From Hyphomicrobiales bacterium (GTDB lineage: Bacteria > Pseudomonadota > Alphaproteobacteria > Rhizobiales > OSC116): a DNA stretch of 64,000 nt. Position 1 is the stretch's first letter. Each line of letters opens with the position of its first letter. Below the pieces are notes generated by a model. That model had not been told where the DNA came from and made no database searches. It was given only the letters and a program-made list of their open reading frames with translations. The stretch is taken from the NCBI GenBank assembly GCA_013214705.1, contig JABSRZ010000008.1, positions 1 to 64,000 on the forward strand, in the 5' to 3' direction. Below, in pieces: positions 1,983-59,866 of this stretch. The position numbers were made by a program, and so were the translations under genes.

Positions 1983-1985
1983 GAT

Positions 1986-3152: not shown

Positions 3153-3228
3153 TGTTTTAGTGACCTTATAGTTTAAAATACCTAATTAGGAGCTTTAGCA
3201 CTATTCTGTCAAGGTGTTCGAATTTATT

Positions 3229-3913: not shown

Positions 3914-4101
3914 ATATAATCAATTATATTTAGTTTTTCAACAAGCACGGAAAAAAACATGCTAACAACAGCATGTTGTCACAAATAGATTTTGAACCAC
4001 AATTACTATGATCGCTCTGTAGAGTCTATCAAATTGGCGGTAATTCAGACTTCGGCAAACTTGAAGCGGTTCAATTTACACAAAAGAGAGAAATAGCAGC
4101 T

Positions 4102-5157
4102 ATGAAAATTTTGATAACAGGTACTGCCGGATTTATTGGTTATCATCTGGCCAAAAAGCTACTACAACGCGGTGATGATGTTGTAGGATTAGACAATATA
4201 AATGACTATTATGATGTAAAATTAAAATTGGCAAGATTAAGTGAATTAGGAATTCAAATTCCAGAATTGGAACTAGAAAATAAATTAGTTCAAAGTTCAA
4301 AATATCCTAAGCATAAATTTATAAAAGCGAATATTGACGATTCAGGGAGTTTGAACAAGATTTTTGAAATCGAAAAATTTGATAAGGTTTGTCATTTGGC
4401 GGCGCAGGCGGGGGTTCGGTATTCTATAGAAAATCCTAATGTATATATTCAAAGTAATGTCGTTGGTTTTTTGAACATATTAGAGGCTTGTAGAAATTAT
4501 AATGTTAAAGATCTCTGTTATGCGAGTAGTAGTTCTGTATACGGGCTGAACAAATCACAACCATTTAAGACCTCCGATACAACAGATACGCCCATATCTC
4601 TTTATGCAGCGACAAAAAAATCAAACGAGTTGATGGCACATACATATTCTCATCTTTATAAAATAAAAACAACTGGCTTGCGCTTTTTTACTGTTTATGG
4701 CCCCTGGGGCAGACCTGATATGGCACCATTTTTATTTACAGATGCTATATCTAAGGGAAAACCAATTAAGGTATTCAACAACGGGAATATGAGCCGAGAT
4801 TTCACATATATTGATGACATTGTTGATGGCCTTATGAAGGTTATTGACGGTTCAAAAAACACTCTAGAAATTTCAAAAGCTGAAACAACAGATACAGCTT
4901 CCACCGATTCATTCTATAAAATATACAATATTGGAAATAGCGCACCATTAAAGTTAATGGATTTTATAAATACACTGGAACAGTCTTTGGGCAAAACAGC
5001 AGAAAAGATCTACTTGCCGATGCAGGATGGTGATGTGGAATCTACTTTTGCAGATGTGAGTGATCTTATGAAAGATTTCAATTTCAAGCCCAATACAAAA
5101 ATTTCGTATGGTGTTAGTGAATTTGTTAAATGGTATAAGGCCTTTTATGAGAAATAA
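4102..5157 (+). CDS. NAD-dependent epimerase, UDP-glucuronate 4-epimerase type
   Basis: Extended SDR of 351 residues that most likely interconverts UDP-glucuronate and UDP-galacturonate for polysaccharide assembly. Visible are GTAGFIG (7-13), the N-terminal LDNINDYYDVKLK stretch characteristic of the UDP-glucuronate 4-epimerase group, ASSSSVYG (141-148), and Y168/K172 in the YxxxK motif (YAATK). The start ATG has GAGAG about 10 nt upstream. The ugd gene, which makes UDP-glucuronate, is 950 bp away in the other direction, supporting the substrate assignment. A UDP-GlcNAc(A) 4-epimerase of the WbpP type is an alternative. The stop overlaps the flippase start by 11 nt. Confidence 0.85.
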   Translation: MKILITGTAGFIGYHLAKKLLQRGDDVVGLDNINDYYDVKLKLARLSELGIQIPELELENKLVQSSKYPKHKFIKANIDDSGSLNKIFEIEKFDKVCHLAAQAGVRYSIENPNVYIQSNVVGFLNILEACRNYNVKDLCYASSSSVYGLNKSQPFKTSDTTDTPISLYAATKKSNELMAHTYSHLYKIKTTGLRFFTVYGPWGRPDMAPFLFTDAISKGKPIKVFNNGNMSRDFTYIDDIVDGLMKVIDGSKNTLEISKAETTDTASTDSFYKIYNIGNSAPLKLMDFINTLEQSLGKTAEKIYLPMQDGDVESTFADVSDLMKDFNFKPNTKISYGVSEFVKWYKAFYEK

Positions 5158-6481
5158 ATTAAAATCGCTTAAAAACAACTATACCTTTATGAAATATTTC
5201 AAAAATACGTCATGGCTTTTTGGCGCACGAATATTCAGAATGGGCGTTGGATTTTTCGTTATCATACTTATGACGAGGTATCTGGGTCCGGATAACTTTG
5301 GGCTTTTATCTTATTCTCAAAGTTTTGTTGCTTTATTTGTAGCCATGTCAACGCTCGGGCTAGAGGTTATTTTAACCAGGGAACTTACAAAAAACAAATC
5401 CGAAACAGATCTAATCTTAGGCACTGCAATTGTATTAAAGCTTGTCGCCTCGGTATTGGCTTTTTTATGTATTGTCGGCGCAAACATTTATATTGATGAC
5501 GATAAAGCCAGCCGGTTGACAAACATCATTGCCTTTACGATCTTCTTTCAAAGTATTAATTTGGGTATAGACACCTATTTTCAGGCTAATATTATATCTA
5601 AATATAGTTCAATTTCTAAAACAGTTGTTTATATACTGTCGACTATATTAAAGCTAAGCTTAATATATTTCGAAGCTGAATTAATTTATTTTGCTTATGT
5701 ATTGGTGTTTGACGCAATAATTACATTTATTGGATATTTGTATATATATAGCCTACAGAAAAAAAATATTTTATCGCTTCGCTTTAGCACCGAAAAAGCC
5801 TTGTTCTTGCTTAAAAGCGGGCTGCCAATGTTATTGGTATCAATGGCAGTGTTTTTTTATACCAAAATTGATCAAATTATGATCAAGTTCTTGCTCGACA
5901 ATGAAGCTGTTGGACATTACGCCGCTGCCATCAAGGTCAGCGAATTGTTTTATTTCATTCCGTTGCTCATCACCCAGTCGGTATTTCCAAAAATTATTCA
6001 AGAAAAAGAATCAGGAAACAATGAAAGTTATTTCAAATTATTGTTGAATATATATAAGATAGTTCTTTGGATATCTTTAGCTATTGTTGTCATTATTGTA
6101 AGCTTTAGTGATTTGATTGTTGATATACTATTTGGTGCCGCTTTTGCTCCTTCAGCCGGTATTCTATCTGTATTAACTTACTCCTTAATATTGGTTTCAA
6201 TTGGGAGCGTAAATACAAAAATCTTATATGCTGAACACCTAGAAAAAAAATATTTGTATAGAAGCATTTTTGGCATCGTTGTTAATATAGGGCTGAATTA
6301 TCTATTAATCCCCATTTATGGGGCGGTAGGAGCGGCTATAGCAACTTTAGCAACTCTTATTACCATTCATTATATCTACGACCTGTTTGACCGAGACTTG
6401 TGGAAATTTTACCATCTGAAATTATGGTGTTTCATTCCCATAAATTTAGCTCCAAAGAAAACTAATAAAAAGGGGAATTAA
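5147..6481 (+). CDS. Wzx-type polysaccharide flippase
   Basis: Integral membrane protein of the MATE-like polysaccharide translocase superfamily, expected to flip undecaprenyl-linked repeat units across the inner membrane. About 444 residues with 12 or more hydrophobic segments. The N-terminal stretch ARIFRMGVGFFVIILMTRYL and the following LGPDNFGLLSYSQ are typical of the family. The ATG at 5147 is preferred: AAGG sits 7 nt upstream and it overlaps the epimerase stop by 11 nt, suggesting translational coupling. A longer frame opens at 5108 and a shorter ATG lies at 5189 without a ribosome site. With the polymerase-like gene at 12058-13053 it implies a Wzx/Wzy pathway. Confidence 0.88.
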   Translation: MRNKLKSLKNNYTFMKYFKNTSWLFGARIFRMGVGFFVIILMTRYLGPDNFGLLSYSQSFVALFVAMSTLGLEVILTRELTKNKSETDLILGTAIVLKLVASVLAFLCIVGANIYIDDDKASRLTNIIAFTIFFQSINLGIDTYFQANIISKYSSISKTVVYILSTILKLSLIYFEAELIYFAYVLVFDAIITFIGYLYIYSLQKKNILSLRFSTEKALFLLKSGLPMLLVSMAVFFYTKIDQIMIKFLLDNEAVGHYAAAIKVSELFYFIPLLITQSVFPKIIQEKESGNNESYFKLLLNIYKIVLWISLAIVVIIVSFSDLIVDILFGAAFAPSAGILSVLTYSLILVSIGSVNTKILYAEHLEKKYLYRSIFGIVVNIGLNYLLIPIYGAVGAAIATLATLITIHYIYDLFDRDLWKFYHLKLWCFIPINLAPKKTNKKGN

Positions 6482-6664
6482 TGTGTTACGCATTGAAATT
6501 AATCTTCTTTGAAAAGCATTGTATGATTGTGTAGGCAATTGTAATGCCCCCTACAATTCATCATAAGAGTTGTTCTTAGTATCTAAATATCATATGTTTT
6601 ATTAGGGGACTATTATAACACCGATAGAGTAAATTAAACAAAATAGAATTTGGAATAATAACCG
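6482..6664. other. Gap with hairpin resembling an IS-A end
   Basis: A 7-bp inverted repeat (AATTGTA at 6537-6543 with TACAATT at 6552-6558) encloses GCCCC. The string TGTAATGCCCCCTACAATTC closely resembles the IS-A left end, so this may be a solo end left by a lost copy or a small hairpin between flippase and GT10 genes. There is no T-run, so a classical terminator is not supported. Confidence 0.35.
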
Positions 6665-7687
6665 ATGAAAACAGTTTCATTTGTTGCTGAGAAATCATTT
6701 CACGGCAATGCAATCTTTGATAATACACAAACAAAACTTAAAAACGGAGGTTTTGATAAATATTATCAGCTTTATGAGGAATTTAAAAAGAACGGTTATA
6801 AGATTGCTACAAACGACATCCATAAACCAGAAGATTCCGAAATTATCCTGTATTTTGATATGCCAAAATTAAAATTAAAACTTGAAGATCGAAATAAGTC
6901 ATTTCTTTTGGCAATAGAGAGTTCCATAATCAGGCCCGAAAACTTTGATAAAAGCTTGCATCAATATTTTCAAAACATTTTTACATGGAATGATGATCTT
7001 GTAGACAATAAAAAATATATTAAAATGAATTACTCATTTGCATTTCCAACAACAATTTATAAAAGCCCTCAGCGAAAAAAGTTATGTTGTCTTATTGTTG
7101 GCAATAAAAGTTCTAAGTTTTCGCATGAACTGTATAGCGAAAGAAAAAATCTAATCCGCTGGTTTGAAAAAGAACAACCAGAGGATTTTGATTTATATGG
7201 GGTTGGTTGGAATGAATATACTTTTGTGGGTAACCGATTGATTAGGGGATTAAATAGGCTACAAATATTTAAAAAAATTGGAATGTACTTTTGGGGTGAA
7301 ACATTTGTTTCGTACAAAGGTAAAATAGACAGTAAAACAGAAACTCTAAGAAATTATAGGTTTTCAATTGCATATGAAAATGCCCATGGCGATGCTGGGT
7401 ATATAACAGAAAAAATATTTGATATCTTTGTAGCAGGCTGTGTCCCCGTTTACTTGGGGGCACGAAATATAACCGATTACATTCCGCCAAATTGCTTTAT
7501 TGATAGAAGAAATTTTGAAAACCATCAAGATTTATATGTTTTTTTAAAAAATATGAAAGATGACGTTTATACTGACTATCTAAATAATATAGAAAAATAC
7601 CTAAATTCCGAACAATCCTATCAATTTAGCTCCCAAAATTTCGCAAAATTAATTGTTGGAACCTGTATTGGTAAGAAATTAAAATGA
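6665..7687 (+). CDS. GT10 alpha-fucosyltransferase
   Basis: Glycosyltransferase family 10 enzyme that transfers fucose from GDP-fucose in alpha-1,3/1,4 linkage to a glycan acceptor. 340 residues. The diagnostic C-terminal donor-binding block lies at 233-280: FSIAYENAHGDAGYITEK, then FVAGCVPVYLG and NCFIDRRNF, matching the conserved GT10 pattern. No transmembrane segment or signal is seen, consistent with the soluble bacterial enzymes. The window also encodes both steps of GDP-fucose synthesis (gmd, fcl), giving a coherent donor supply. Its TGA overlaps the next ATG by 4 nt, so it is coupled to the unknown gene at 7684. A short 63-codon frame inside it is a shadow. Confidence 0.93.
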   Translation: MKTVSFVAEKSFHGNAIFDNTQTKLKNGGFDKYYQLYEEFKKNGYKIATNDIHKPEDSEIILYFDMPKLKLKLEDRNKSFLLAIESSIIRPENFDKSLHQYFQNIFTWNDDLVDNKKYIKMNYSFAFPTTIYKSPQRKKLCCLIVGNKSSKFSHELYSERKNLIRWFEKEQPEDFDLYGVGWNEYTFVGNRLIRGLNRLQIFKKIGMYFWGETFVSYKGKIDSKTETLRNYRFSIAYENAHGDAGYITEKIFDIFVAGCVPVYLGARNITDYIPPNCFIDRRNFENHQDLYVFLKNMKDDVYTDYLNNIEKYLNSEQSYQFSSQNFAKLIVGTCIGKKLK

Positions 7688-9147
7688 ACAATAAGTATGT
7701 AAAGAAATTCATTGAACCACATTTTCATAAAGATCTAAATTTAGAAGATTATGAAATTGAAACCGTAGAATCGATTGACCTTTTAACACACACCCGCTTT
7801 GACCTTGCTTTCAAATTGTTATATTTGGATATGAAAAACGAAAATGTAAAATTCTCTGACAATTTATATAAAACCCATATAAAGGCTTTTAGCCTTGGAA
7901 ATTATACCGAACCAGGCAATAAAGACAAAAATAGTATTGAAAAATATATTGCTGAATTTGAGACCATTTTTAAAGATATAGAGAAAAACGGGTTTGATAA
8001 CAATAAATCATTGTTGCCTCTTTCTACAAACGGAGCCATTGCAAATGGCGCACATAGGGTTGCCTGCGCCATTTATCTAAATAAACAAGTTGAGTGTGCG
8101 CATATTAAAACTGGAGACCATATTTACGATTACAAGTTTTTTTATGGTCGGAATGTTTCACGCGGAGCACTAGACGCTGCTGCAACAACATTTGTTGAAT
8201 ATGCAAATAATCTTCATATAGCCTTCGTTTGGCCTTCCGCCGAAGCTAATGATAAACAGGTTGAACAAATCATCCCGAACATTGTTTATCAAAAGCACAT
8301 CCAACTTAATCCGAATGGTGCTCATAATTTGCTGTCGCAAATTTATTTTGGAGAAGATTGGTTAGGAAATGTAGAAAATGATTTTAACGGTGTGAATGGA
8401 AAGTTTGTAGAGTGTTTTAAATCATTTGGTCCCATTCGCGTCATAGCTTTTCAGGCAAACGGTTTAGAAGAGGTGCTAGAAATAAAAGATAAAATTCGGG
8501 CGGTATTTAATGTCGGAAAACATTCTATTCACATTACTGATACAAAAAAGGAAGCGGTGAGAGCCGCTAGGCTTGTCTTTAATGATAATTCCATTCATTT
8601 TTTAAATCACGCTAAACCTAATAAATATCTTTCAACTCACAATAAGATGATATTTTTCAAAAAGTTTATTGAAAAAAATAATATTGACCAGAATAAAGTA
8701 GTTTTAGATTGCGGAATAATTTTATCTGCCTATGGAGTGCGAGAATGTAGTGATACCGATTATTTCATAGCTAATAATGAAAAGTTGGACTTTCAACCAG
8801 ATGGACTTGAAATTCATGATGAAGAATTAAAATATCACACTAAAAGTAAATTGGAAATGATATTTAATCCAGAATATTATTTCTACTTTAATGATTTAAA
8901 ATTCGTTTCATTTCCCTTACTTTATAGTATGAAAAAAAACAGAGCTGAGCAAAAAGACATTAATGATTGCAATATGATGGATGGCTTAATTGAAAATAAT
9001 TCATTTAAAAAAAATGTTGCTGCGACAAAACAATATATTAATTATAAGAGAATTAAAGCAAAACGTTCTGGCCTTATATTTCTTAAAAAATACCAGTTAT
9101 ATGAAACGATAAGGTATATTTATAGAAAAATTAGGGGGAAGAAATGA
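7684..9147 (+). CDS. Unknown protein with ParB-like and nucleotidyltransferase-like motifs
   Basis: 487 residues; no family recognised with certainty. Two motifs stand out. Residues 116-130 (NGAIANGAHRVACAI) resemble the G-x-H-R signature of ParB/sulfiredoxin-fold domains. Residues 341-362 (LDCGIILSAYG followed by VRECSDTDYFI) resemble the nucleotidyltransferase-fold pattern in which a small loop is followed by R-x-x-S-D-x-D. The C-terminus is Lys-rich and has no membrane segment. It overlaps GT10 upstream and GT2 downstream by 4 nt each, so it is translated as part of one glycan-assembly operon. A role in modifying or attaching the repeat unit is inference only. Codon use is as AT-rich as its neighbours. 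Confidence 0.85.
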   Translation: MNNKYVKKFIEPHFHKDLNLEDYEIETVESIDLLTHTRFDLAFKLLYLDMKNENVKFSDNLYKTHIKAFSLGNYTEPGNKDKNSIEKYIAEFETIFKDIEKNGFDNNKSLLPLSTNGAIANGAHRVACAIYLNKQVECAHIKTGDHIYDYKFFYGRNVSRGALDAAATTFVEYANNLHIAFVWPSAEANDKQVEQIIPNIVYQKHIQLNPNGAHNLLSQIYFGEDWLGNVENDFNGVNGKFVECFKSFGPIRVIAFQANGLEEVLEIKDKIRAVFNVGKHSIHITDTKKEAVRAARLVFNDNSIHFLNHAKPNKYLSTHNKMIFFKKFIEKNNIDQNKVVLDCGIILSAYGVRECSDTDYFIANNEKLDFQPDGLEIHDEELKYHTKSKLEMIFNPEYYFYFNDLKFVSFPLLYSMKKNRAEQKDINDCNMMDGLIENNSFKKNVAATKQYINYKRIKAKRSGLIFLKKYQLYETIRYIYRKIRGKK

Positions 9148-9947
9148 GAAAACATCCTATGCTATCGGTTGTAATGCCCGTTTACGACGCCGAAAAATAC
9201 CTTGACGAAGCAATTAAAAGCATTTTGGTTCAAACGTTTGAGAACTTTGAATTCATAATTGTAAATGATGGATCCAAGGATCAAAGCTTGGATATTATTA
9301 AAAAATATAAAAACCAGGACGACAGAATTGTTTTGGTCGACAGACAAAACTCCGGAATTGTTGATGCACTAAATGAAGGGATTTCCAAAGCAAATGGCAA
9401 ATTTATCGCAAGAATGGATGCCGATGACATAGCATTTAGTAATAGGTTTCAAAAACAAGTTGATATTCTTGTTGCTGATGATAGCTTGGATTTAATTTAT
9501 ACGAATACAGTGCTGCTAGACAAAAACAGTAGTGTTATATGTACAAGTTGGAGGCCAAACTTGGAGATAACTCTTCGAAACCTTGAAATTCACACCTATA
9601 TCCCTCATCCAACTGTTATATTTAAAAAGGCAACATTCGAAAAACTAGGTGGATACACCAAAGAAAGAATGCATGCCGAAGACTTGAGTTTGTGGTTGAA
9701 AATGGTGCAAAATAAATGTAATTTTCATTATCTTGATGAAGCGTTATTATATTATAGACTTAACCCACAATCAGTTAGGCTAGGAATGTATGATAACTAT
9801 TGGTATAAAGTGGCAAACAGATGTATATACAGTGGATCCAGGTTACAGGTTTTTAAATATTTCAAATATTTAAATGCAAAAGAAAAAGCGATTTTATTTG
9901 TGAAAATGTTTTTCCCAAAAAGTTTTTTTCATAGAAATATTAGATGA
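9144..9947 (+). CDS. GT2 family glycosyltransferase
   Basis: Inverting GT-A fold glycosyltransferase, 267 residues, cytoplasmic face of the membrane. The GT2 hallmarks are present: SVVMPVYDAEKYLDEAI (8-24), the VNDGSKD nucleotide-binding loop (about 39-45), the metal-binding DAD in ARMDADD (about 90-96), and an ED pair in HAEDLSLWLK (about 178-187) that often supplies the catalytic base. Start ATG overlaps the preceding stop (ATGA) and its own stop overlaps the following GT4 start (ATGA), so the set 6665-11035 is a four-gene coupled unit. Sugar donor and acceptor cannot be inferred. Confidence 0.93.
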   Translation: MRKHPMLSVVMPVYDAEKYLDEAIKSILVQTFENFEFIIVNDGSKDQSLDIIKKYKNQDDRIVLVDRQNSGIVDALNEGISKANGKFIARMDADDIAFSNRFQKQVDILVADDSLDLIYTNTVLLDKNSSVICTSWRPNLEITLRNLEIHTYIPHPTVIFKKATFEKLGGYTKERMHAEDLSLWLKMVQNKCNFHYLDEALLYYRLNPQSVRLGMYDNYWYKVANRCIYSGSRLQVFKYFKYLNAKEKAILFVKMFFPKSFFHRNIR

Positions 9948-11035
9948 AAAAAATATTAATATTCTCTCATGAATTCCCTCCATTTGGTGGCGGGGCAGGT
10001 GTTGTAGCCAAACACTATGCGAAAAAACTTTCAGACGAAGGCAACGAAATAACAGTTCTTACAAAACAGATTGAAAATATTGATTTAAACGTTAAGTATA
10101 AAATAAGACTCGTAAAAAATTTGAAAAAAATTTGGATCCTAGCCTATATTAAGGCGGTTGATTTCGATGAGTACGATCAAATTATTCTGAATGACCATTC
10201 TTCCGTTTATTTTGCTGGATTATTCTTCAGCCAAAACCAGTTATCAAATTCAGTCGCTTTTTTACATGGTTCTGAGCCGGAAAATATTTTTGAGAAACCA
10301 AATATAATTAAAAAATTATTTGCTTATAAATACTTTTATGTGAGTGCATTAAATCGGATCAGTAGTATAAACGCAGTAAGTTCTTACATGAAAGAAAAAT
10401 TTATGAAAAGAACCGAAATGTATCATCTTGAAAGTAAAATAAAAATAGTATATACTTCGGCTGACCCTGATATATTTTATCCTGACTTTAATGAAGACTT
10501 CAATAAGAATTTGAACATACCGATTGATGCAACAATATTATTATCTGTTAGTCGAATTGTTAAAGACAAAGGCTATTTCGAAATGTTCGAAATATTTAGA
10601 AAACTAAGTCTTAATAATGAACGGTTATTCTGGATAATTATCGGTACTGGAAATTACTTACAAACATTGAAAAATTTCGCAAAAAACTCCAATTTGGAAT
10701 CCAAAATTATTTTTACTGGTGCCGTAAAAAGAGAGAAATTGAGAACTTATTACTCCAACGCTAGCGTTTTTTGGCTTTTATCAAATCTTGATGAATCATT
10801 TGGTCTCGTATATTTAGAGGCTCAGACTTGTGCCTGCCCAGTAATCGGGCGAAATAGAGCGGGTGTGAAAGAAGTAATTGAAAATAGGAAAAGCGGGTTT
10901 TTGGTTGAAAATCGGGAAGCGGTCATAGATATTTTAAAAAACAGAAAATATATGGAGCTCAAAAGGGAAGATATATTGAAATTTTCAAATAACTTTTGTT
11001 TAGTAGATAAGAAACAAAATATTTTATCCAAATGA
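9944..11035 (+). CDS. GT4 family glycosyltransferase
   Basis: Retaining GT-B fold glycosyltransferase, 363 residues. The N-terminal HEFPPFGGGAGVVAKHYAK stretch is the glycine-rich acceptor-domain loop. The C-terminal domain begins around SVSRIVKDKGYFEM, and the E-x7-E donor motif is in ESFGLVYLEAQ with the following PVIGRNRAGVKEV. The C-terminus (after 'FSNNFCLVDKK') is slightly short for the family. It ends 150 bp before IS-A copy 2, so the operon end may have been trimmed by the element. Translation is coupled to the preceding GT2 through ATGA. Donor and acceptor are unknown. Confidence 0.92.
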   Translation: MKKILIFSHEFPPFGGGAGVVAKHYAKKLSDEGNEITVLTKQIENIDLNVKYKIRLVKNLKKIWILAYIKAVDFDEYDQIILNDHSSVYFAGLFFSQNQLSNSVAFLHGSEPENIFEKPNIIKKLFAYKYFYVSALNRISSINAVSSYMKEKFMKRTEMYHLESKIKIVYTSADPDIFYPDFNEDFNKNLNIPIDATILLSVSRIVKDKGYFEMFEIFRKLSLNNERLFWIIIGTGNYLQTLKNFAKNSNLESKIIFTGAVKREKLRTYYSNASVFWLLSNLDESFGLVYLEAQTCACPVIGRNRAGVKEVIENRKSGFLVENREAVIDILKNRKYMELKREDILKFSNNFCLVDKKQNILSK

Positions 11036-11184
11036 AATTAGTCATGCAATATTAACTTCGTTATCAGCTAAAATTCAGGTTAATAATCGCACAGACCAAC
11101 CCTTAAATCTAAATTGGCAATATTTTTTTCTTTAAATCTGTTGAAGCATTTTTGGATGCTCTTTGATACACTTCCTCGATACTA

Positions 11185-11849
11185 TGGTAATGCCTCCTAA
11201 ATTCCAGGGTATTTTTAAGTAAAATTTTCTAATAAGTTAATTTGTGAGATTTCACATGAAGAAGTCGAAATTTTCAGATAACCAAATCATTGGTATTTTG
11301 AAACAAGCTGAGTCCGGTACTCCGGTCCCAGAACTCTGCCGTCAACATGGTATGAGCAGCGCGAGTTTCTATAAATGACGATCCAAATATGGTGGCATGG
11401 ATGCGTCCATGGTGACACGGATGAAAGAGCTTTAATCAGAGAATGCACGGCTTAAAAAAATGTGCGCAGATGTTCAACTCCAAAATGATGTAATAAAGGA
11501 AGTTCTAGAAAAAAGTGGTGAAGCCGTCCCTTTGGCGCACTTTAGCCAAAGCTGCTGTATGCAAGGGGATATTAAGCATACGGGCGGCTTGTCAAGCCTT
11601 CCCGATCAGTGAGAGCTGTTATCGGTATAAACCAAAGTTAAGTGATGGGAATGCAATTATTGCTCATTTTTTGATTGGTCTTACAGATAGCCAACGTAAT
11701 TGGGGCTTTAAATTATGCTTCCTGCATTTGCGTAATGTAAAGGGTTTTGGATGGAAACATAAACGAGTTTACCGCATTTATTGTGAATTAGAGCTTAATC
11801 TACCTATCAGGCCGAAGAAGCGACTGTGCAGAGATAAACCTGATAGGTA
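11185..11849 (+). mobile_element. IS-A copy 2: IS3-family remnant, orfB truncated
   Basis: The left end TGGTAATGCCTCCTAAATTC starts at 11185. orfA starts at the ATG at 11256 (MKKSKFSDNQIIG), but a TGA replaces the Trp codon after SFYK and a TAA follows KEL. An A6G slippery string sits near the orfA end, as IS3 elements use for -1 frameshifting into orfB. orfB is open from 11515 as a 110-codon N-terminal part (ISESCYRYKPKLSDGN, then RNWGFKLCFLHLRNVKG and RVYRIYCELELN), then breaks off near 11849 where a different IS fragment begins. The catalytic DDE part is gone, so it is dead. Confidence 0.85.
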
Positions 11850-11931
11850 TAATCACCTTCATTCTCCAACACCATCCGTACCGCACGTGCGCGCACCTCA
11901 AGTGAAAATTTATTTCTTGTTTTGCTCATAA
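11515..11931 (+). pseudogene. IS-A orfB N-terminal fragment
   Basis: Truncated IS3-family transposase orfB. Residues 1-110 match the HTH-like N-terminal part of IS3 orfB (RNWGFKL, VKGFGWKHKRVYRIY, LPIRPKKRL). The remaining codons read through a foreign junction and are meaningless. The integrase core with its three acidic residues is missing. Upstream orfA has two premature stops. Confidence 0.8.
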
Positions 11932-11988
11932 TTACTCCTTTTACTGCAGAATAGGAGCCTTCCGCAAGCTTGGAGCGGTCCAGGTCAG
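11850..11988 (-). mobile_element. IS3-family fragment (IS-D) with orfA 5' end
   Basis: On the minus strand an ATG at 11929 opens the reading MSKTRNKFSLEVRARAVRMV and then LENEGD, the typical N-terminus of the IS51/IS3-type orfA. AAAGGAG lies 8 nt upstream. The frame is cut at about 11850 by the junction with IS-A copy 2. The element end reads TGACCTGGACCGCTCCAAGC. Only about 26 codons survive. Confidence 0.7.
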
Positions 11989-12044
11989 TGAAAAGTGTAG
12001 CTTAAATCAATACAAAATATGTTGCAGATTTGGGGAGCACCTCA
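11983..12044 (+). mobile_element. IS-B right-end fragment
   Basis: About 62 bp identical in layout to the right end of IS-B at 16626-16687: GGTCAGTGAAAAGTGTAGC through the terminal GGGGAGCACCTCA. No coding part survives here. It lies between the IS-D piece and the polymerase-like gene, completing the mobile debris in the 1,020-bp gap 11036-12057. Confidence 0.75.
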
Positions 12045-12057
12045 TTAATAGGGGTTT

Positions 12058-13053
12058 TTATGAATTAACTTGGGTTAACAACATAATTAACGAACTTGGA
12101 AACAATATTGTTGGTGTGATCAACATAATATATAAAGTTACTCTTACAAACATTTTTTGTTTATAATTATCTTCTATTGCTTTAACTACTGGGACCAAAA
12201 TAATCATTAGCGCAAACATGCCTACTCGTTTTGATTGAGCAGATCCCATTAATAATGCTGCTAATGAAGTTAGTGAAATTAAATATATAAAATAATACAA
12301 AAACTTTGCTGATATATCGTTAAGTCTATTTCTATAAGATAATATATAAAATATAAGCAACATTAACATTACAAACAAATAGACACCAACGCCTAACATT
12401 CCCGAATCACTATATGATTTTGTTCCCAAAACAAAAGGCAAAAGAGTTAATACACACAAGTATGAAAATACACTTTTGATACTAATATGTCTTTTCTCAT
12501 TGAATGTGAAAAATAAAGGTGAAAACAGTGCACCTACATTATGCGTAAGAATTGATATTAAAATAAAAAATGACTTTTTAATAAAACCAGAACCAACTAA
12601 TAATAATGAAGTGAAATATAGGAATATTGTGTATGATAAATATTGTCTGAACACATTATTCATCCCCATTACCGCTGGAAAAAATAATAGAAAAAGATAG
12701 GGAAAATATTGAGGTAGTTTCATATTGGTTCTTGCTTTTAATACAAAAATAAAAGACAAAATATCAAAAATTATAAATGTTATTTCTTCTGATTGAGTTA
12801 TTTTATATATATATCGTGAAGTCATCCAATAGACTGGTTCTTTTAAGTAATAAAGTGAAAACGATTCGGATTTTAATGCGACTTCATATGCGTTCATATC
12901 GCCATCAAAGCCAGAATACCGTATGATAGAAGAGTAAATACAGAGAAGGAAAAGTGTTATAAAAAAATAAAGCCTTTCCGAAGGTATTTTGATAATACAA
13001 AATAGCGCTCCAATCAAAACCATAAATAGATAATAAACAAGTTCATACGTCAT
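12058..13053 (-). CDS. EpsG/Wzy-like polysaccharide polymerase
   Basis: Polytopic membrane protein of about 331 residues with 9-11 hydrophobic segments. The pattern RYSGFDGDMNAYE near 50-62, then LKEPVYWMTSRYI near 75-88 and NNVFRQYLSYTIFLY near 130-145, is the EpsG-family arrangement (D-x-x-x-Y, KEPxxW, RQ), which polymerises repeat units on the periplasmic side. The ATG at 13053 is preferred; a GTG at 13071 would add six residues and neither has a strong ribosome site. It is very AT-rich and, unlike its neighbours, reads leftward. It is flanked by IS debris on one side and a degenerate tRNA plus IS-A copy 3 on the other, so it may have come in with these elements. Confidence 0.8.
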   Translation of the reverse strand: MTYELVYYLFMVLIGALFCIIKIPSERLYFFITLFLLCIYSSIIRYSGFDGDMNAYEVALKSESFSLYYLKEPVYWMTSRYIYKITQSEEITFIIFDILSFIFVLKARTNMKLPQYFPYLFLLFFPAVMGMNNVFRQYLSYTIFLYFTSLLLVGSGFIKKSFFILISILTHNVGALFSPLFFTFNEKRHISIKSVFSYLCVLTLLPFVLGTKSYSDSGMLGVGVYLFVMLMLLIFYILSYRNRLNDISAKFLYYFIYLISLTSLAALLMGSAQSKRVGMFALMIILVPVVKAIEDNYKQKMFVRVTLYIMLITPTILFPSSLIMLLTQVNS

Positions 13054-13101
13054 AAAAACCCAAAAAACCACATTTAAGCGGCTGCAAACTAAACAAATTT
13101 A

Positions 13102-13186
13102 TGGCAGGGGTAGCTAGACTTGAACTCGTACACTTTTCGATACTTGATTTTGAATCAAGCAGGTCTACCGATTCCACCACACTCCC
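13102..13186 (-). tRNA. tRNA-Leu(CAA), apparently degenerate
   Basis: The minus strand reads like tRNA-Leu. There is a perfect 5-bp anticodon stem CTTGA/TCAAG around the loop TTCAAAA (anticodon CAA), a D-loop containing AATCGGTAGA, a class II variable arm and an encoded CCA. The acceptor stem has an A-C mismatch and terminal G-U pairs, the T-stem has two mismatches, and the D-stem is weak. By contrast the tRNA-Leu(GAG) at 26551-26637 pairs cleanly. It may be a decaying copy or a divergent functional gene. Confidence 0.6.
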
Positions 13187-13227
13187 AATTTTATACAACT
13201 TTTCCAAATAGAGTGATAGCTAATTAA

Positions 13228-13359
13228 GGCATTGATTTAAAGGTACATTGGCACAATTATGCTGATAACTCAACGCCTTTTGAACTACAAAGTGAAATCT
13301 GCAAGTTCGCCGCACAGGTAGCTCGTAATGGAGGGTGCAAAATTATTCTCTCCAAGTAG
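13228..13359 (+). pseudogene. Orphan C-terminal coding fragment, family unknown
   Basis: An open stretch of 43 codons without a start ends at TAG 13359. It contains VHWHNYADNSTPFELQSEI followed by CKFAAQVARNGGCKIILSK. The amphipathic end looks like a real protein C-terminus rather than random sequence, but I do not recognise the family. It lies between the degenerate tRNA-Leu and IS-A copy 3, where the 5' part of the gene would have been lost. The rest of 13190-13470 shows nothing. Confidence 0.3.
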
Positions 13360-13470
13360 CTATTGCGACCGCTTCTTTCATACCTAGCCTCGGGATAATG
13401 TGAGCTGACCGAAGGAACCTTACAAAAAATCCAATACTTAAAAGGGAAACCGAAGCAAACCCGGAGCGGC

Positions 13471-14002
13471 TCATGCCTCCAAAATTTCAGAGTGTTTTAA
13501 GGTAGAATTTTCTATTAAGTTAATTTAAGGGATTTTACATGAAGAAGTCTAGATATTCAGATAGCCAAATCATTGGTATTTTAAAACAAGCTGAGGCTGG
13601 AACGCCAGTTCCAGAACTTTGCCGTCAACGCGGTATGAGTAGGGTTAGTTTTTATAAATGCGACCCAAATATGGTGGGTTGGATGCATCGATGGTCAAGC
13701 GGGTGAAAGATCTTGAGAGCGGCAACGTCAGTCTGCTATTCCTTCAACCTGGTAATCCACAACAAAATGCCTGCGTTGAGTGTTACAAGCCAACCGTCAA
13801 ATATGATTGGCCAGCACAGCATATCTTTACAATAATTGAGAAATTCAGTCTTCAGTGATGAACTGGGTATGGACTTATAATAATGAGAGGCCTAACGTGG
13901 CCAAAAGCGGCATGACGCCAATTCAAAAACTAGGTATGGCTCAAGCCAAGGCTGCGTAATCGGATCTACTTTTGAAGCCCGTTAAGAATGGGAGCATTTC
14001 CA
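13471..14002 (+). mobile_element. IS-A copy 3: internally deleted, both ends kept
   Basis: The left end is ATGCCTCCAAAATTTCAG. orfA starts at the ATG at 13539 (MKKSRYSDSQIIG), with a 1-bp deletion after SFYK. The frame then passes through KYGGLDASM straight into orfB C-terminal sequence (LQPGNPQQNACVE, then YDWPAQHIF) because roughly 700 bp of orfA/orfB is missing. The last part reads WTYNNERPNVAKSG and MTPIQKL. The right end GGGAGCATTTCCA is an imperfect inverted match to the left end TGGTAATGC-CTCC of copies 2 and 5, which fixes both termini of the element. Confidence 0.8.
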
Positions 14003-14018
14003 TAGGATTTAAATATAA

Positions 14019-15134
14019 ATGAAAAATATACTCTTTCTGGTTAGCACGTTGCGCAATACTGGACCAACGAATCAATTGTCATATATTTTAAAATATATGG
14101 ATAAAGAACTTTTTAAGCCACATATACTAACATTATCAGAAGAACCGAAAGACAGCCGAAAAAACTATTTTGAGGATGAGTTGAAGCTAAATATAATATC
14201 TCTGAGACTTTCGAGAATCAAAGGCTTTTTTAAAGCAAAAGCAAAAATTAGAAACTTTATTATTGAGAATAATATAGACCTAATTCACAGCCAGGGCTTA
14301 AGAGCCGATAGTTTATTATCCAAATTAAATGTGAACACCCCTCGAATATCAACAATAAGAAATTATCCTCAATCAGACTATCCAATGATGTTTGGGAAAT
14401 TGTTAGGGAACTTTCTTGCTGTTAAACACATATCTGCCCTAAGAAATTTGGATAATGTGTTTGGTGTTTCTGATAGTGTTTCTAATAACCTAAAAAATGA
14501 ATACGGATTAACAAATATTCAAACAGTGCGAAATGGTGTCGATATTTCTAAATATAAGCCTTGTATCGACAAAATTCAATTGAAGAAAGAACTTTCAATT
14601 CCATTGAAGAAAACAATTTGGATCTCATCAATTGGTAAAGGAAGCCGTAAAGATTCAACTATTATCGCTAGAGCGTTCAAAAAAATACATGAAGCAGACA
14701 ATAGTAATTTTTTGATATTTGTCGGTGATGGGGAGCTTAAAATCCAATGCCAAAAAATATTGGAGGGCATAAACAACACGTTATTCACAGGAAATATATC
14801 CAATATATCGAAATATCTTCAAATTGCCAACTTTTTCATTTCATCGTCAAAAGCAGAGGGCTTTCCTAATGCTGTACTTGAAGCAATGGCCTGTGGTCTT
14901 CCTGCCATTCTATCAAATATTGCTCCTCATACTGAAATTATTAGTTTAAACAAGAAATCTGCTATTTCTTTTAAACTCGGTTCTACGCAAAGCTTGGTAG
15001 ATGCCATGGAGAATATAGTAGATATAAATTCTAATATTTCTACTGAAGAAGCTATAAACCTAATAGATACTCAATTAACTGCAGATAAAATGTCCAGAAA
15101 TTATCAGGCTGTGTACCAAGAATTAATTCACTAA
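14019..15134 (+). CDS. GT4 family glycosyltransferase
   Basis: Retaining GT-B glycosyltransferase, 371 residues. The N-terminal VSTLRNTGPTNQLSYI loop and SQGLRADSLLSKL in the acceptor domain are followed by the C-terminal donor domain with SIGKGSRKDS, and by the E-x7-E motif in AEGFPNAVLEAMACGLP near residues 285-300. It lies alone between IS-A copy 3 (which ends 16 bp upstream) and another IS-A end 19 bp downstream. Its promoter may therefore be inside the element or lost. It is AT-rich like the other transferases. Sugar specificity is unknown. Confidence 0.92.
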   Translation: MKNILFLVSTLRNTGPTNQLSYILKYMDKELFKPHILTLSEEPKDSRKNYFEDELKLNIISLRLSRIKGFFKAKAKIRNFIIENNIDLIHSQGLRADSLLSKLNVNTPRISTIRNYPQSDYPMMFGKLLGNFLAVKHISALRNLDNVFGVSDSVSNNLKNEYGLTNIQTVRNGVDISKYKPCIDKIQLKKELSIPLKKTIWISSIGKGSRKDSTIIARAFKKIHEADNSNFLIFVGDGELKIQCQKILEGINNTLFTGNISNISKYLQIANFFISSSKAEGFPNAVLEAMACGLPAILSNIAPHTEIISLNKKSAISFKLGSTQSLVDAMENIVDINSNISTEEAINLIDTQLTADKMSRNYQAVYQELIH

Positions 15135-15153
15135 GGCGAGAGATATACTAAAA

Positions 15154-15250
15154 TGGTAATGCCTCCTAAAATTCGGGGTGATGGATCCAACTGGTCATCG
15201 CAACATATGAGTGGCAATGCCCCTAAATTTGGTAATCCTCCCATTTTTCA
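15154..15250. mobile_element. Solo IS ends (IS-A left end, IS30 end)
   Basis: TGGTAATGCCTCCTAAAATT at 15154 is an IS-A left end with no element behind it. It abuts ATGGATCCAACTGGTCATCG (15181-15200), a diverged copy of the IS30 end seen at 15255. A second IS-A-like string, TGGCAATGCCCCTAAATTTG, follows at 15213. No coding sequence. Confidence 0.5.
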
Positions 15251-15714
15251 TGGGGATGGATTCAACGGGTCACCGCAACATCTCCTGTAGTTTATATGCT
15301 GGTGTTTTGAAGTCCAGAGTTTTTCTTGGGCGAGAATTCAGTTGTTCAGCAATGGTATCCAGTTCAATTTGTGAATATACAGATAAGCAACTTCCTTTTG
15401 GAAAAATATTGCCTTAACAATCCATTGGTATTTTCATTTGTACCACTTTGCCATGGACTGCTGGGGTCGCAGAAATAGACGCCCATGTTGGTTGCAAGCG
15501 AGAAGTTCTTATGAGCCGCTAATTCTGTTCCGCTATTCCAAGTAAGGCTTTTCTTTAATGAGAGAGGGGATTTACTCATTTGATCAATCAAAGCCGAGAC
15601 AACCGATTCAGTCTTTTTGCTTTCCACTTTAATTAGAATAGTAAAGCGGGATTGACGCTCTACAACAGTTGCAATATAGCTATTTTTAGTGACCTTGCCC
15701 CAATTTGGATCCAT
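15251..15714 (-). mobile_element. IS30-family transposase fragment
   Basis: The minus frame 15364-15714 encodes 116 residues of the IS30 DDE core: YIATVVERQSRFTILIKVES, then LTWNSGTELAAHK and the highly diagnostic PWQSGTNENTNGLLRQY. The reading frame shifts after RQYFSK, and the C-terminal NSRPRKTL block is found in another frame at about 15330. The element end reads GGGGATGGATTCAACGGGTC. The N-terminal HTH part is missing at 15715, where an IS3 fragment is fused. Inactive. Confidence 0.85.
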
Positions 15715-15893
15715 TTAAGCATAGAGTCTTGGGTTGATATTTTTGTTCAGTTTTTGTTGATTTGCAATGTCTTTATTCCTTTCTGTGTTTAATGCCATGT
15801 ATGGGCTTAATCTGTTTAATGTTGAATATGGCCTGACATGATTATAATCATGTCGCCAATCTGCCAATATCCTACGGACATTGTGGGTCTTCA
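15715..15893 (-). mobile_element. IS3-family orfB C-terminal fragment
   Basis: The minus strand reads VRRILADWRHDYNHVRPYST followed by LNRLSPYMALNTERNK, the typical IS3/IS407-type orfB C-terminus, and ends INPRLYA at the fusion with the IS30 fragment. No start and no DDE core. Its sequence differs from IS-A, IS-B and IS-E, so it is a further element type. Confidence 0.7.
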
Positions 15894-15894
15894 A

Positions 15895-16007
15895 AGGTAG
15901 TGCCCCCTAAATTCCAGGGTATTTTTAAGTAGAATTTTCTAATAAGTTAATTTAGGAGATTTTACATGAAGAAGTCGAGATATTCAGATAGCCAAATCAT
16001 TGGTATT
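15895..16007 (+). mobile_element. IS-A copy 4: left part, interrupted by IS-B
   Basis: Left end AGGTAGTGCCCCCTAAATTC, then the orfA start MKKSRYSDSQIIGI from the ATG at 15966. At 16008 the frame is cut by the left end of IS-B. The downstream half of IS-A is not found beyond IS-B, so insertion was followed by deletion or recombination. Confidence 0.8.
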
Positions 16008-16687
16008 TGGGGTGCTCCGCAATAATGACACAATGACTTAAGTTCTAATTTTTGCTTGACTGGTTTTAACCAGACGAGGAAATCTAAAATGTCTAAACGT
16101 AAGAACCATAATTCAGCTTTTAAAGCTCGTGTTGCTTTAGAAGCCCCATAAAAGGCGGGCAAACGGTCACGGAACTGGCCGGTCGTTTTGGTGTTCACCC
16201 CTCTCAAATTCATCTGTGGAAACGTTCACCGCTTGACGGTTCTGCCGAAGTTTTTGAACGTGGTCAGAAGACAAAGTCATCCGATGATACCTAAGATATT
16301 TAACACCGGTCAAGGTAGTCAATTCACATCTTGGTAGTGGATTAATCGGCTTAAGTCTGCCAACACTAAAATATCGATGGATGGCAAAGGCCGGTATCTG
16401 GACAATATATTTATCGAACGGCAGTGGCGATCACTCAAATATGAATGTGTTTATTTATATGCCTGGAGTGGCGGCAGTGAAGCCAGAGAAGGCGTTGGCA
16501 ACTGGATCAGCTTTTATAATACGGAACGACCTCAGAGCCTGCCCCTTTCTCTGGGTATAAAGCCCATTGTGGTTTAACCCCAGATGTGATTTATTGGAAC
16601 AAATTGAACAATCAACTCGACGACTGGTCAGTGAAAAGTGTAGCTTAAATCAATGCAAAATCTGTCGCAGATTTGGGGAGAACCTCA
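16008..16687 (+). mobile_element. IS-B copy 1: IS3-family, internally deleted, both ends kept
   Basis: The imperfect terminal repeats TGGGGTGCTCCGCAA (16008) and TGAGGTTCTCCCCAA (minus strand from 16687) match at 12 of 15 positions. orfA starts at the ATG at 16089 (MSKRKNHNSAFKARVALEA), then frameshifts and continues VTELAGRFGVHPSQIHLWK. About 600 bp is missing, so orfA runs into the orfB C-terminus (FNTGQGSQFTS, then SMDGKGRYLDNIFIERQWRS and LKYECVYLYA). A 66-codon frame at 16377-16577 is this orfB tail. Size 680 bp against roughly 1.2-1.3 kb expected. Confidence 0.85.
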
Positions 16688-16688
16688 A

Positions 16689-16818
16689 CGTATTCTCAAA
16701 ATGAACTCGATATTATCGCTGAACAGCCAAATTCTCGTCCAAGAAAAACTCTGAACTTCAAAACACTAGCATTATAAACTACAGGAGGTGTTGCGGTGAC
16801 CCGTTGAATCCATCACCA
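16689..16818 (+). mobile_element. IS30-family C-terminal fragment
   Basis: The plus strand reads VFSQNELDIIAEQPNSRPRK followed by TLNFKTLA, the IS30 transposase C-terminus, and then the IS30 end GACCCGTTGAATCCATCACC. It is the mirror partner of the minus-strand IS30 piece at 15251-15714. The two IS30 ends therefore bracket the whole IS3 mosaic 15251-16818. Confidence 0.8.
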
Positions 16819-16937
16819 TTAAAAGAAAAATGTTAAGACATTTAAATGCTTTGAACTTGAATAAATCGATTGGACATAATAGCCGCGCAATGCTAACTTA
16901 AATTAAACTATAACAACGTTAATTGAGTATTAAAGTT

Positions 16938-17516
16938 ATGAAATATAAAATTTGGGGAAAAGGAATTTTTGATTATTCTTTAGCAATAATTCTTGTTATT
17001 CCTTTTAGTGTTTTAATTATTGTTTTTGGAACTCTAAATTTCTTGTCAGTCGGCTTACCGGTTTTTTTCAACCAACCAAGAGTAGGTAGAAATGGAAAAA
17101 TATTCAAGATATATAAACTAAGAACGATGGTGGGGACCAACATTAATTCTGAATTTGCTTCATCAGAAACTCATAGAATTACTCAATTTGGAAATTTTCT
17201 ACGAAAAACTAGAATAGACGAATTGCCGCAAATTATCAATGTTCTAAAAGGCGAAATGTCCTTTATTGGCCCTCGCCCAGAACAGCCTGATTTTGTTAAA
17301 CGATACTGTGAAATCATTGATGATTATAACCACAGGCATTTTGTAAAACCTGGAATCACAGGGTTAGCACAAGTAGAAAATGGGTACACAGATAGTGATG
17401 AAGGTACAAAACAAAAATTAAAATTTGATCTGTTATATATACAAAAACTAGACTTAAAAACCGACTTAAAAATTATTTATAAGACTTTCTTTGAAGTTGT
17501 GCGGATGACAGGATAA
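16938..17516 (+). CDS. Undecaprenyl-phosphate sugar phosphotransferase (PglC/WcaJ catalytic core)
   Basis: Bacterial sugar transferase that starts repeat-unit synthesis by moving a sugar-1-phosphate onto undecaprenyl phosphate. 192 residues, the minimal monotopic form without the WcaJ N-terminal membrane domain. Visible are one N-terminal hydrophobic segment (IFDYSLAIILVIPFSVLIIV), FKIYKLRTM, the catalytic DE pair in RKTRIDELPQ, FIGPRPEQP, and PGITGLAQVENGYT near the end. The ATG at 16938 is chosen; a TTG at 16923 would add five residues. It lies downstream of the IS mosaic, separated from other locus genes, and is probably transcribed from 16820-16937. Confidence 0.93.
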   Translation: MKYKIWGKGIFDYSLAIILVIPFSVLIIVFGTLNFLSVGLPVFFNQPRVGRNGKIFKIYKLRTMVGTNINSEFASSETHRITQFGNFLRKTRIDELPQIINVLKGEMSFIGPRPEQPDFVKRYCEIIDDYNHRHFVKPGITGLAQVENGYTDSDEGTKQKLKFDLLYIQKLDLKTDLKIIYKTFFEVVRMTG

Positions 17517-51587: not shown

Positions 51588-52520
51588 ATGAGTGAAACCA
51601 TGAATAACCGAAACCTCAGTACCCATGATGCAGAAAATGACCCCCGAAACCAGAACATAAAAATATATGTGAATGGCGACATTGTGCCGCGAGATCAGGC
51701 CAAGGTTTCGGTGTATGATTCTGGCTTTATGCTGGGCGATGGCATGTGGGAAGGCATGCGGCTCTACAATGGTAAATGGGCTTTTTTCGATCAGCACATG
51801 GACCGGTTATTTAACAGTTGCAAAGCCATTTCGCTTGATATCGGCATGGATAGAGACGGTATTTTGGCGGCGTTAACCCAAACCGCTAAGGCCAACGGCA
51901 TGACAGGTGATGCCCATTGCCGGTTGATGGTGACAAGAGGGGTGAAAGACAAGCCTTTCCAACATCCTGCGCTCTCACAATCTGGCCCCACAATTGTGAT
52001 CATCATGGAACATTCAAAAGCCGTGGCCAGCTTAAAATCTAGCGGCTTACGTTTGGCAACTGTACCACAAGTGCGCGGCATGCCGATGGCGCAAGACCCT
52101 AAATTTAACTCGCATTCAAAACTTAATTGTGTAATTGCGTGTTTGCAAGCCGAACAAGCCGGCGCAGATGAAGGTTTGATGCTTGACCCCAATGGGTTTG
52201 TGAACACCACAAATGCCTGCAACTTTTTTATTGTCCGTAAAGGGGCTGTGTGGACTTCGACCGGCGACTATTGCATGAATGGGGTGACGCGGCAAAATGT
52301 CATTAATCTTTGCCACGCCAATGACATTCCGGTGTTTGAAAAAAATTACTCATTATATGAAGTATACGGCGCAGATGAGGCTTTTTTAACCGGCACTTTC
52401 GGCGCTCAGACTTATGTTTCGGAAATTGATGGCAAAACCATTGGCACTGGTGACAACCCGGTTACCAACCGCATCCGCAAGTTATATGCCGAACTTATTG
52501 TGCAAAATGTCGGGGGTTGA
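51588..52520 (+). CDS. Class IV aminotransferase (D-amino acid / branched-chain type)
   Basis: PLP fold type IV enzyme, 310 residues. VYDSGFMLGDGMWEGMRLYN is the N-terminal motif. The PLP Lys is in FNSHSKLNCVIA, and the conserved GFVNTTNACNFFIV (T/N-rich) and DEAFLTGTFG follow. Could be a D-amino acid aminotransferase or a branched-chain one; the nearby hydantoinase and racemase make the D-type appealing but not proven. Its stop lies inside the loop of the terminator at 52511. Confidence 0.9.
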   Translation: MSETMNNRNLSTHDAENDPRNQNIKIYVNGDIVPRDQAKVSVYDSGFMLGDGMWEGMRLYNGKWAFFDQHMDRLFNSCKAISLDIGMDRDGILAALTQTAKANGMTGDAHCRLMVTRGVKDKPFQHPALSQSGPTIVIIMEHSKAVASLKSSGLRLATVPQVRGMPMAQDPKFNSHSKLNCVIACLQAEQAGADEGLMLDPNGFVNTTNACNFFIVRKGAVWTSTGDYCMNGVTRQNVINLCHANDIPVFEKNYSLYEVYGADEAFLTGTFGAQTYVSEIDGKTIGTGDNPVTNRIRKLYAELIVQNVGG

Positions 52521-52545
52521 TAAGCGTTTCCCCCCGGCTTTTTTT
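52511..52545 (+). terminator. Rho-independent terminator
   Basis: CGGGGG (52511-52516) pairs with CCCCCG (52531-52536), then GC and seven T residues. The TGA of the aminotransferase is within the loop. It separates the two convergent operons. Confidence 0.75.
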
Positions 52546-52567
52546 GTCGTAGATAATACTGGCATAT

Positions 52568-58374: not shown

Positions 58375-58911
58375 AACCCAAATATTAATACATGTTTTTT
58401 TTGGATTATTTTTTTTTAGGGTTTCGTGAAATTAATTCCACTCGGGGTGGGTAGCCAAAATTGCCTTAAATTATACTAATGTCGTAGATCAATAGTATAA
58501 CATTATGTAATTTCATCAACTTTTTAAATGAGTATCTTGAAAAATTTTGAAACTACATAATTTATGGGAATTAACCACCTACATATAGTTCTCGCTATAG
58601 TTGCAACTAGTTGGAAGTTATTTCCGCTTAATTATAAATTATTAAGTGAATTCGACTTTAGTCTAATATACCAATTTGACCTTAAGGTCTAAAATTTAAT
58701 TACCGTTAATTCGGACATTAGGTCGATGATGAGTCTTTGTCCCCCATTGTGCTCGTTGTCGACTTGTGCATTTAGCTGTTGTGTTCAGCTTGTGCGTTCA
58801 GTCCGGTAAAATTTACCTCAAATTTTAACTATATATGCCAGTTTCACTGTCTTTGCCGCTCCAAACGCGTTAATGTTTTGTTAATGTTTGGTCGCAAATA
58901 GAGGCTTTGTA
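58375..58911. other. AT-rich region upstream of Gln-rich gene
   Basis: No coding signal. It contains a perfect 12-bp palindrome GACCTTAAGGTC at 58678-58689 and an imperfect repeat of CTTGTGCATTTAG and CTTGTGCGTTCAG near 58764-58802. Probably the regulatory region of the secreted-protein gene. Confidence 0.45.
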
Positions 58912-59469
58912 ATGCGTATAGAAAAAAACAGCTTAAATTATATTGTTAAAACAGCCGCAATATTAGCATTGATGCTAACCGCCTTTGTTGGGCAAACTTT
59001 TGCTTATGGCAAAAATGGTGGCAGTGCAAATAGTTGTTTGGCGCTGAGCCAATATTATGGCCCAGATGGTGGCAGGTCGTGGGCGCGCAGCCATGGCATA
59101 GCCATTTGTTCTGAAATTTATGGCGGCCAATATCAAAACCAAATGCAGACTCAATATCAGGCACAAATGCAGGCTCAAGCGCAAGCGCAATATCAGGCGC
59201 AAATGCAGGCACAGGCGCAATATCAGGCCCAGGCGCAATATCAGGCCCAGGCCCAATATCAATCGCAAATGCAATTTCAGTCACAATATCAAGCCCAAAG
59301 AAGCTATAGCGTGCAAAATAGCTTTCTTTCTGGTGGCCGGCTATTTGGCAGCCTAACCATTGGTGGCACTTATCGTAGCGGTTGCGTCTGTAATGGTGGT
59401 GGTGGCAAAAATGGTGGTGGCAAAAACGGCGGCGGCAAAAATGGTGGCGGCAAAAACGGTAACTGGTAG
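58912..59469 (+). CDS. Gln-rich secreted repeat protein
   Basis: 185 residues. A Sec signal (AAILALMLTAFVGQTFA) ends near residue 31. A short region with Cys residues (SANSCLALSQYYGPDGG, then AICSEIYGG) follows. Next come about 66 residues built of YQAQMQAQAQ-type repeats, almost only Q, A, Y and M. Then a short globular region (GGRLFGSLTIGGTYRSGCVC) and a tail of four GGGKN units. The composition suggests a self-assembling or surface-attached fibre protein; I recognise no family. GAGG lies about 8 nt before the ATG. It converges on the next gene with 1 nt between. Confidence 0.85.
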   Translation: MRIEKNSLNYIVKTAAILALMLTAFVGQTFAYGKNGGSANSCLALSQYYGPDGGRSWARSHGIAICSEIYGGQYQNQMQTQYQAQMQAQAQAQYQAQMQAQAQYQAQAQYQAQAQYQSQMQFQSQYQAQRSYSVQNSFLSGGRLFGSLTIGGTYRSGCVCNGGGGKNGGGKNGGGKNGGGKNGNW

Positions 59470-59470
59470 G

Positions 59471-59866
59471 TTATTTACGGTCTAGCTGGTATTGCGTCGG
59501 GTATGGCGCGGCCGCACATTCGGCAATTAACTGAGCGATATCGGTTAGTGGCAGATTGTTATAATCGGCAAAATTTATGCAGCCTTTTTGAAACTTGCCA
59601 GACTTGATGATTTTATTGAATTTTTTATGTATGTCGGCATAGCAATAAATCGGCATTAAATGCAGGCTAATGTGTTTGTTATGGCAGGTTATGGCATATT
59701 TCATAAGGTCTTGTTGTTTATACATTAGCGCGTGATTGCTCATCAAACTACTAGCTGAGCGGTTAACATTGGAGTCGTTTTCTGCCAATATGATGACCAA
59801 TTGGTCAACCGCCATATTATATCTACTGTCTATTTTGCTTTTGAATTCAGCAACCTCATTGGCCAT
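59471..59866 (-). CDS. DUF1801-like small protein
   Basis: 131 residues. The end resembles the DUF1801/YdhG fold: CHNKHISLHLMPIYCYADIH, then GKFQKGCINFADYNNLPLTD and IAQLIAEC. Function unknown in this family. It is 12 nt after xthA and co-oriented, so in the operon erp-independent set xthA-DUF1801. No signal or membrane segment. Confidence 0.75.
   Translation of the reverse strand: MANEVAEFKSKIDSRYNMAVDQLVIILAENDSNVNRSASSLMSNHALMYKQQDLMKYAITCHNKHISLHLMPIYCYADIHKKFNKIIKSGKFQKGCINFADYNNLPLTDIAQLIAECAAAPYPTQYQLDRK

Follow-up and report, generated by a model that had tools for sequence, protein, structure and literature searches.

Gene A occupies positions 58912-59469 of the plus strand of the window, the 64,000-nucleotide stretch of Hyphomicrobiales DNA that we analyzed, and encodes an exported-looking protein of 185 amino acids with a glutamine-rich (QX)n tract. 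Its reading frame was found by ORF calling and confirmed as real, with AGAGG 7 nt 5' of the ATG; the frame is likewise open from a TTG at 58888, a longer start that would give 193 amino acids. Residues 1-31 (58912-59004) form a hydrophobic, signal-type N-terminus by eye, in agreement with a sequence-only reading of this DNA that had called the product exported, and A is probably a small exported protein. The remainder is built from four parts on the same strand: an N-terminal domain containing C42 and C66 in a frame common to three orthologs (59005-59127); the tract itself, residues 73-130, delimited by an alternation test and DNA repeats (59128-59301); a C158-x-C160 motif visible in the sequence and matched by a C-x-C in the orthologs (59383-59391); and a Gly-Lys-Asn tail (59392-59466), in which a tandem-repeat search finds GGGKN encoded by a 15-nt unit in 4.3 copies with 87% matches. 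Both the cysteine pairs flanking the repeat and the glycine-lysine tail had been described in the earlier reading, and both are there.

That reading knew no family with this arrangement, and the cysteine-bearing flanks indeed match nothing over a curated cut-off in Pfam, NCBIfam or PHROGs. For A, the best Pfam match has an E value of 0.048 (14.2 bits against a cut-off of 31.6), the best NCBIfam match one of 0.00065 (18.7 bits against 550), and PHROGs returned nothing up to E 0.1. Another member of the A family matches TolA in NCBIfam at 1.9e-5; we read these NCBIfam matches, as well as the 5 PDB sequences (TCERG1, eL29) matched by the profile of A, as low complexity. AlphaFold, run on a two-sequence alignment, gave a model of no use (pLDDT 44, pTM 0.17), with a low-confidence helix and not strands over residues 69-110.

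A conserved hairpin and a CtrA-like site in front of A

Folding, covariation and a model search point to a conserved, terminator-like RNA hairpin in front of A (58722-58770, plus strand), with a 12-bp stem and an 18-nt C-rich loop. Copies lie on the minus strand in relatives (L046 6622-6671, L047 5613-5660 and L085 177-225), and 18 letters of the hairpin, GTCTTTGTCCCCCATTGT, are exact in the genome of the window (G000) and in G001, G003 and G004. The fold z scores in three genomes are -6.4, -3.6 and -5.4. When the four sequences are aligned, 97.8% of cells pair and three pairs are changed on both sides, whereas slid partners pair in only 31-64%. Of 500 column shuffles, 10 reached the observed pairing and 5 the covariation score, but 53 reached the double-change count and 125 the number of pair types. 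We consider the covariation in these four sequences suggestive. Across 249 genomes, a model of the hairpin scored at least 66 bits in four genomes of the genus, each with one strong copy, and 26-27 bits in two others. A search of positions 58500-59600 against Rfam found nothing up to E 5. Because T-runs follow the stem in three of the four sequences, the hairpin looks like a terminator, perhaps that of a small RNA. Downstream of the G003 hairpin, the contig ends before any start of A is reached.

Other features were noted along the way. G001 and G003 have another hairpin, with a CCCCCC loop, on the upstream side of the conserved one (L046 6720-6800 and L085 305-380, both minus strand); by eye, it was not seen in the window. 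A GC-rich hairpin with a T-run at 52509-52546 (plus strand) marks the end of a gene that stops at 52520, and we read this weak match of the hairpin model (E 0.009) as an ordinary terminator. Far from A, the ORF list shows by eye a cluster of sugar-nucleotide, glycosyltransferase and flippase-like genes (861-17516), probably for a surface polysaccharide.

Between the hairpin and A, a pattern match located TTAA-N7-TTAA at 58870-58884 (plus strand), 27 nt before the ATG. This resembles TTAA-N7-TTAAC, reported as the CtrA motif for H. neptunium (PMC7200025). The pattern occurs 3 times in the window against 5.6 expected, so it is not enriched and not significant alone. The site in front of A is also perfect in the DT_98 ortholog described below and is degenerate in G001.

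The alternating tract and the relatives of A

Within the tract, glutamine occupies exactly every second position for 29 units, a strict (QX)29. The X residues are A (12), Y (7), M (4), S (2) and one each of N, T, F and R. Given 29 glutamines in 57 positions, the chance of their falling only at alternate positions is 6.7e-17. The repeat block had been described as 66 residues of YQAQMQAQ; it is present and more regular than claimed, with a strict Q-X-Q-X order, but its regular part spans 58 residues. The underlying codons are mixed: glutamine is encoded by CAA 18 times and CAG 11 times, and all four alanine codons are used (GCG 5, GCC 4, GCA 2, GCT 1). All 29 codons in the Q register of A encode glutamine, as do 29 of 30 in DT_98, where the remaining one encodes lysine. 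Since synonymous sites are mixed while glutamine is kept, we read the alternation as kept by selection on the protein, and the (QX)n pattern looks to be held at that level and not by fresh slippage. The sequence-only reading had taken the varying repeat lengths to imply slippage and strain variation. Length does vary across species, with longest strict runs of 58, 34 and 34 residues in three A orthologs, and slippage may have altered it, but with its mixed synonymous codons the array does not look like one that slipped recently.

Whole-length orthologs are found in G001 (207 amino acids) and G004 (198 amino acids), the latter on contig JABSRY010000183.1 of the MAG Hyphomicrobiales bacterium DT_98. 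The three proteins have in common the N-terminal cysteine frame, the (QX) tract and a C-x-C/KNG end. Among nine genomes searched with the N-terminal domain alone, four match up to E 10: G000, G001 and G004 fall below 1e-9, and G007 reaches only 0.9. This domain has no match in plasmids or phages, and of viral contigs, 600 stretches fit patterns and none was confirmed.

At E 1e-3, 7 of 61 genomes match A. Five belong to the genus; the other two, G011 and G045, do not, and match through (QA)n or (QS)n arrays. A profile search at the same threshold matched 27 of 297 genomes of the order, again five in the genus; none of the other 22 aligns before model position 57, so their matches fall in or near the tract (ORFs were read at seven loci from these genomes, including L006/L012 and L008 for two of them). 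In the class, 3 of 385 genomes match at 1e-6: the source genome, G632 and G481, the last of which carries an unrelated Q-rich family. A Q-rich family of the order and class has NxN stretches and an AFTQ..GANIQFN-like end (L021 934-1791, minus strand; L022 1429-2322; L024 1354-2253; L033 1387-2328; L093 1552-2397), with no Pfam family over its cut-off. Similar to A, these alphaproteobacterial proteins have glutamine at alternate positions in stretches; unlike A, they show no signal-like start by eye, several have acidic X residues, and the remainder of each is unrelated.

The genes adjoining A in the window, xthA, GNAT, erpA and dgt, also adjoin it in G001 and G004, and the genes on its other side in G001 appear phage-like by eye. 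With erpA as query, the matches in G003 and G005 reached only 35% and G002 had none; with xthA, searched in G002 and G003, they reached only 31%. A was not seen in G002, G003 or G005, but the segment flanking it may perhaps be unassembled there, and A is present in all three genomes where the flank was found (G000, G001 and G004). By these sequence searches, A is known here from one genus. MAGs with DT names come from sinking particles collected at 4,000 m (PMC9426571), and DT_98, a relative of the source genome, apparently comes from such ocean particles, the link being by name.

Two further proteins with the tract

The sequence-only reading missed the strict alternation and also that two more envelope proteins of this genome carry (QX)n tracts. 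A search of G000 itself yields three matches, A, B (393 amino acids) and C (468 amino acids), on contigs C44, C34 and C42, respectively. Each begins with a segment that is signal-like by eye and contains a strictly alternating Gln-X tract. As judged from these shared features, A belongs to a three-protein (QX)n pattern in which it is the smallest member.

B combines KNGG repeats, a feature common to A and B, with (QX) tracts and a conserved cysteine domain that matches no Pfam family over its cut-off and nothing in a PDB sequence search up to E 1. It was found in five of six genomes of the genus; the G001 match is to C instead. C is an outer-membrane barrel of the Pfam family BBP2_2 (PF10082; E 7.8e-13, 48.5 bits against a gathering score of 23.7), and three of three C members searched match the family. 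In front of the barrel, C has a Pro-rich stretch and, in most cases, a (QX) tract, which set it apart within this family of putative outer-membrane porins; A is not a barrel. At 1e-10, C occurs in 4 of 150 genomes of the order, all of the genus (G000, G001, G003 and G005). It was additionally found in G002, and G004 has none among the matches listed. All three proteins together were seen only in G000, several other genomes of the genus being incomplete.

The longest strict runs are 40, 52, 20, 60 and 23 residues in B and 54, 38, 22, 0 and 23 in C. The zero belongs to G003, where C retains only the Pro-rich stretch and lacks the tract; its gene sits between motA-like and galU-like genes as in G000.

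In each of the five genomes searched, one CtrA-like TTAA-N7-TTAA precedes C by approximately 90-97 nt (L058 1393-1407, L057 2929-2943, L056 2988-3002, L071 1228-1242 and L059 1192-1206), with 0.15-0.43 expected per locus; the five sites come from orthologs and hence are not independent. In G003, the half-sites are kept and the spacer differs. No such site lies upstream of B in G000, where the single nearby match is downstream.

A possible surface assembly

A, B and C may assemble jointly at the cell surface. Our tentative reading, possible but short of probable, is that they form a β-sheet surface assembly for attachment with C as its anchor. The alternation would put glutamine on one face of a strand and A, Y, M, S and G on the other, so that tracts could stack together into a β-sheet assembly tethered to the outer membrane by C. 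The KNGG stretches would serve as flexible spacers, with the cysteine pairs capping the ends or cross-linking them. Such an assembly would likely help the cells attach, or form a surface matrix, on particles. We favor a β-sheet because a period-2 glutamine pattern is amphipathic for a strand and not for a helix. The earlier reading had called the composition prion-like or fibre-like, and a fibre is plausible as a hypothesis. The strictness of the alternation, the glutamine kept amid mixed synonymous codons, the presence of the same alternating tract in all three proteins, the KNGG stretches common to A and B, the BBP2_2 barrel of C and the sinking-particle MAG set to which DT_98 belongs by name are consistent with such an assembly, whereas the weak AlphaFold helix with its pLDDT of 44, the tract-less C of G003 and the joint occurrence of the three proteins in G000 only argue against it. 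Moreover, the N-terminus of a barrel is usually periplasmic, and therefore the tract of C may not be outside.

Curli (CsgA/CsgB) and other functional amyloids of bacteria are among the closest known systems, being exported, glutamine-containing repeat proteins with proposed β-sheet stacking and, in curli, an outer-membrane partner such as is part of our proposal. However, A has a strict two-residue period, and no curlin family is among its Pfam matches up to E 1. The best CsgG match in G000 has an E value of 0.223 (11.6 bits against a cut-off of 20.8), which counts against the assembly by leaving it no curli-type route across the outer membrane. One of six genomes of the genus has CsgG over the cut-off, namely G003, whose C has no tract; its CsgG-family protein (L078, G003:C127 13796-14344) scores 58.9 bits. 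The top PDB sequence match over the A tract (E 2.4e-10) is human TCERG1, whose (QA)n alternates in the same way and needs at least 17 QA units for C/EBPalpha repression (PMC9445028). TCERG1 is instead an intracellular transcription regulator with neither cysteine frame nor signal, and the similarity is one of low complexity only.

The tract could also form no assembly and act, in a disordered or helical state, as a neutral hydrophilic spacer. In A it would keep the cysteine head away from the C-x-C/KNGG end, and in C it would hold the barrel apart from the Pro-rich stretch. Such a spacer would suit a tract that is absent from the C of G003, free to vary in length among orthologs and modeled as a low-confidence helix; yet a spacer does not need a strict period of two, and the alternation is kept in three families, leaving this account rather unlikely. 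We give still less credence to a Tyr/Gln-rich adhesive or hydrogel held together by covalent links between its chains, either dityrosine or Gln-Lys bonds to the KNGG lysines, and not by amyloid stacking: tyrosine fills 7 of the 29 X positions in A and 12 X positions in DT_98, and the tail of A is rich in lysine, but the tract of C in G000 contains only 2 tyrosines. A functionless product of neutral slippage of a CAR-NNN hexamer is highly improbable, for although unrelated genomes of the order hold pure (QA)n or (QS)n arrays, two at contig ends, and tract length differs between species, glutamine persists amid mixed synonymous sites and three exported families of the genus share the tract.

Returning to the β-sheet assembly, a more specific form of it would be a three-part, CsgG-independent Gln-X zipper, in which A and B, as soluble subunits, co-polymerize with each other and with the tract-bearing barrel C as nucleator or anchor, and in which C, and perhaps A, is under the control of the cell-cycle regulator CtrA; this full scheme we regard as unlikely. 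If the tracts do associate, they would constitute a natural bacterial alternating Gln-X polymer with a built-in membrane anchor, and G003, whose C lacks the tract, already offers a natural case to compare it with. The system would then provide a way to ask how glutamine ladders assemble usefully and how bacteria on sinking particles hold on.
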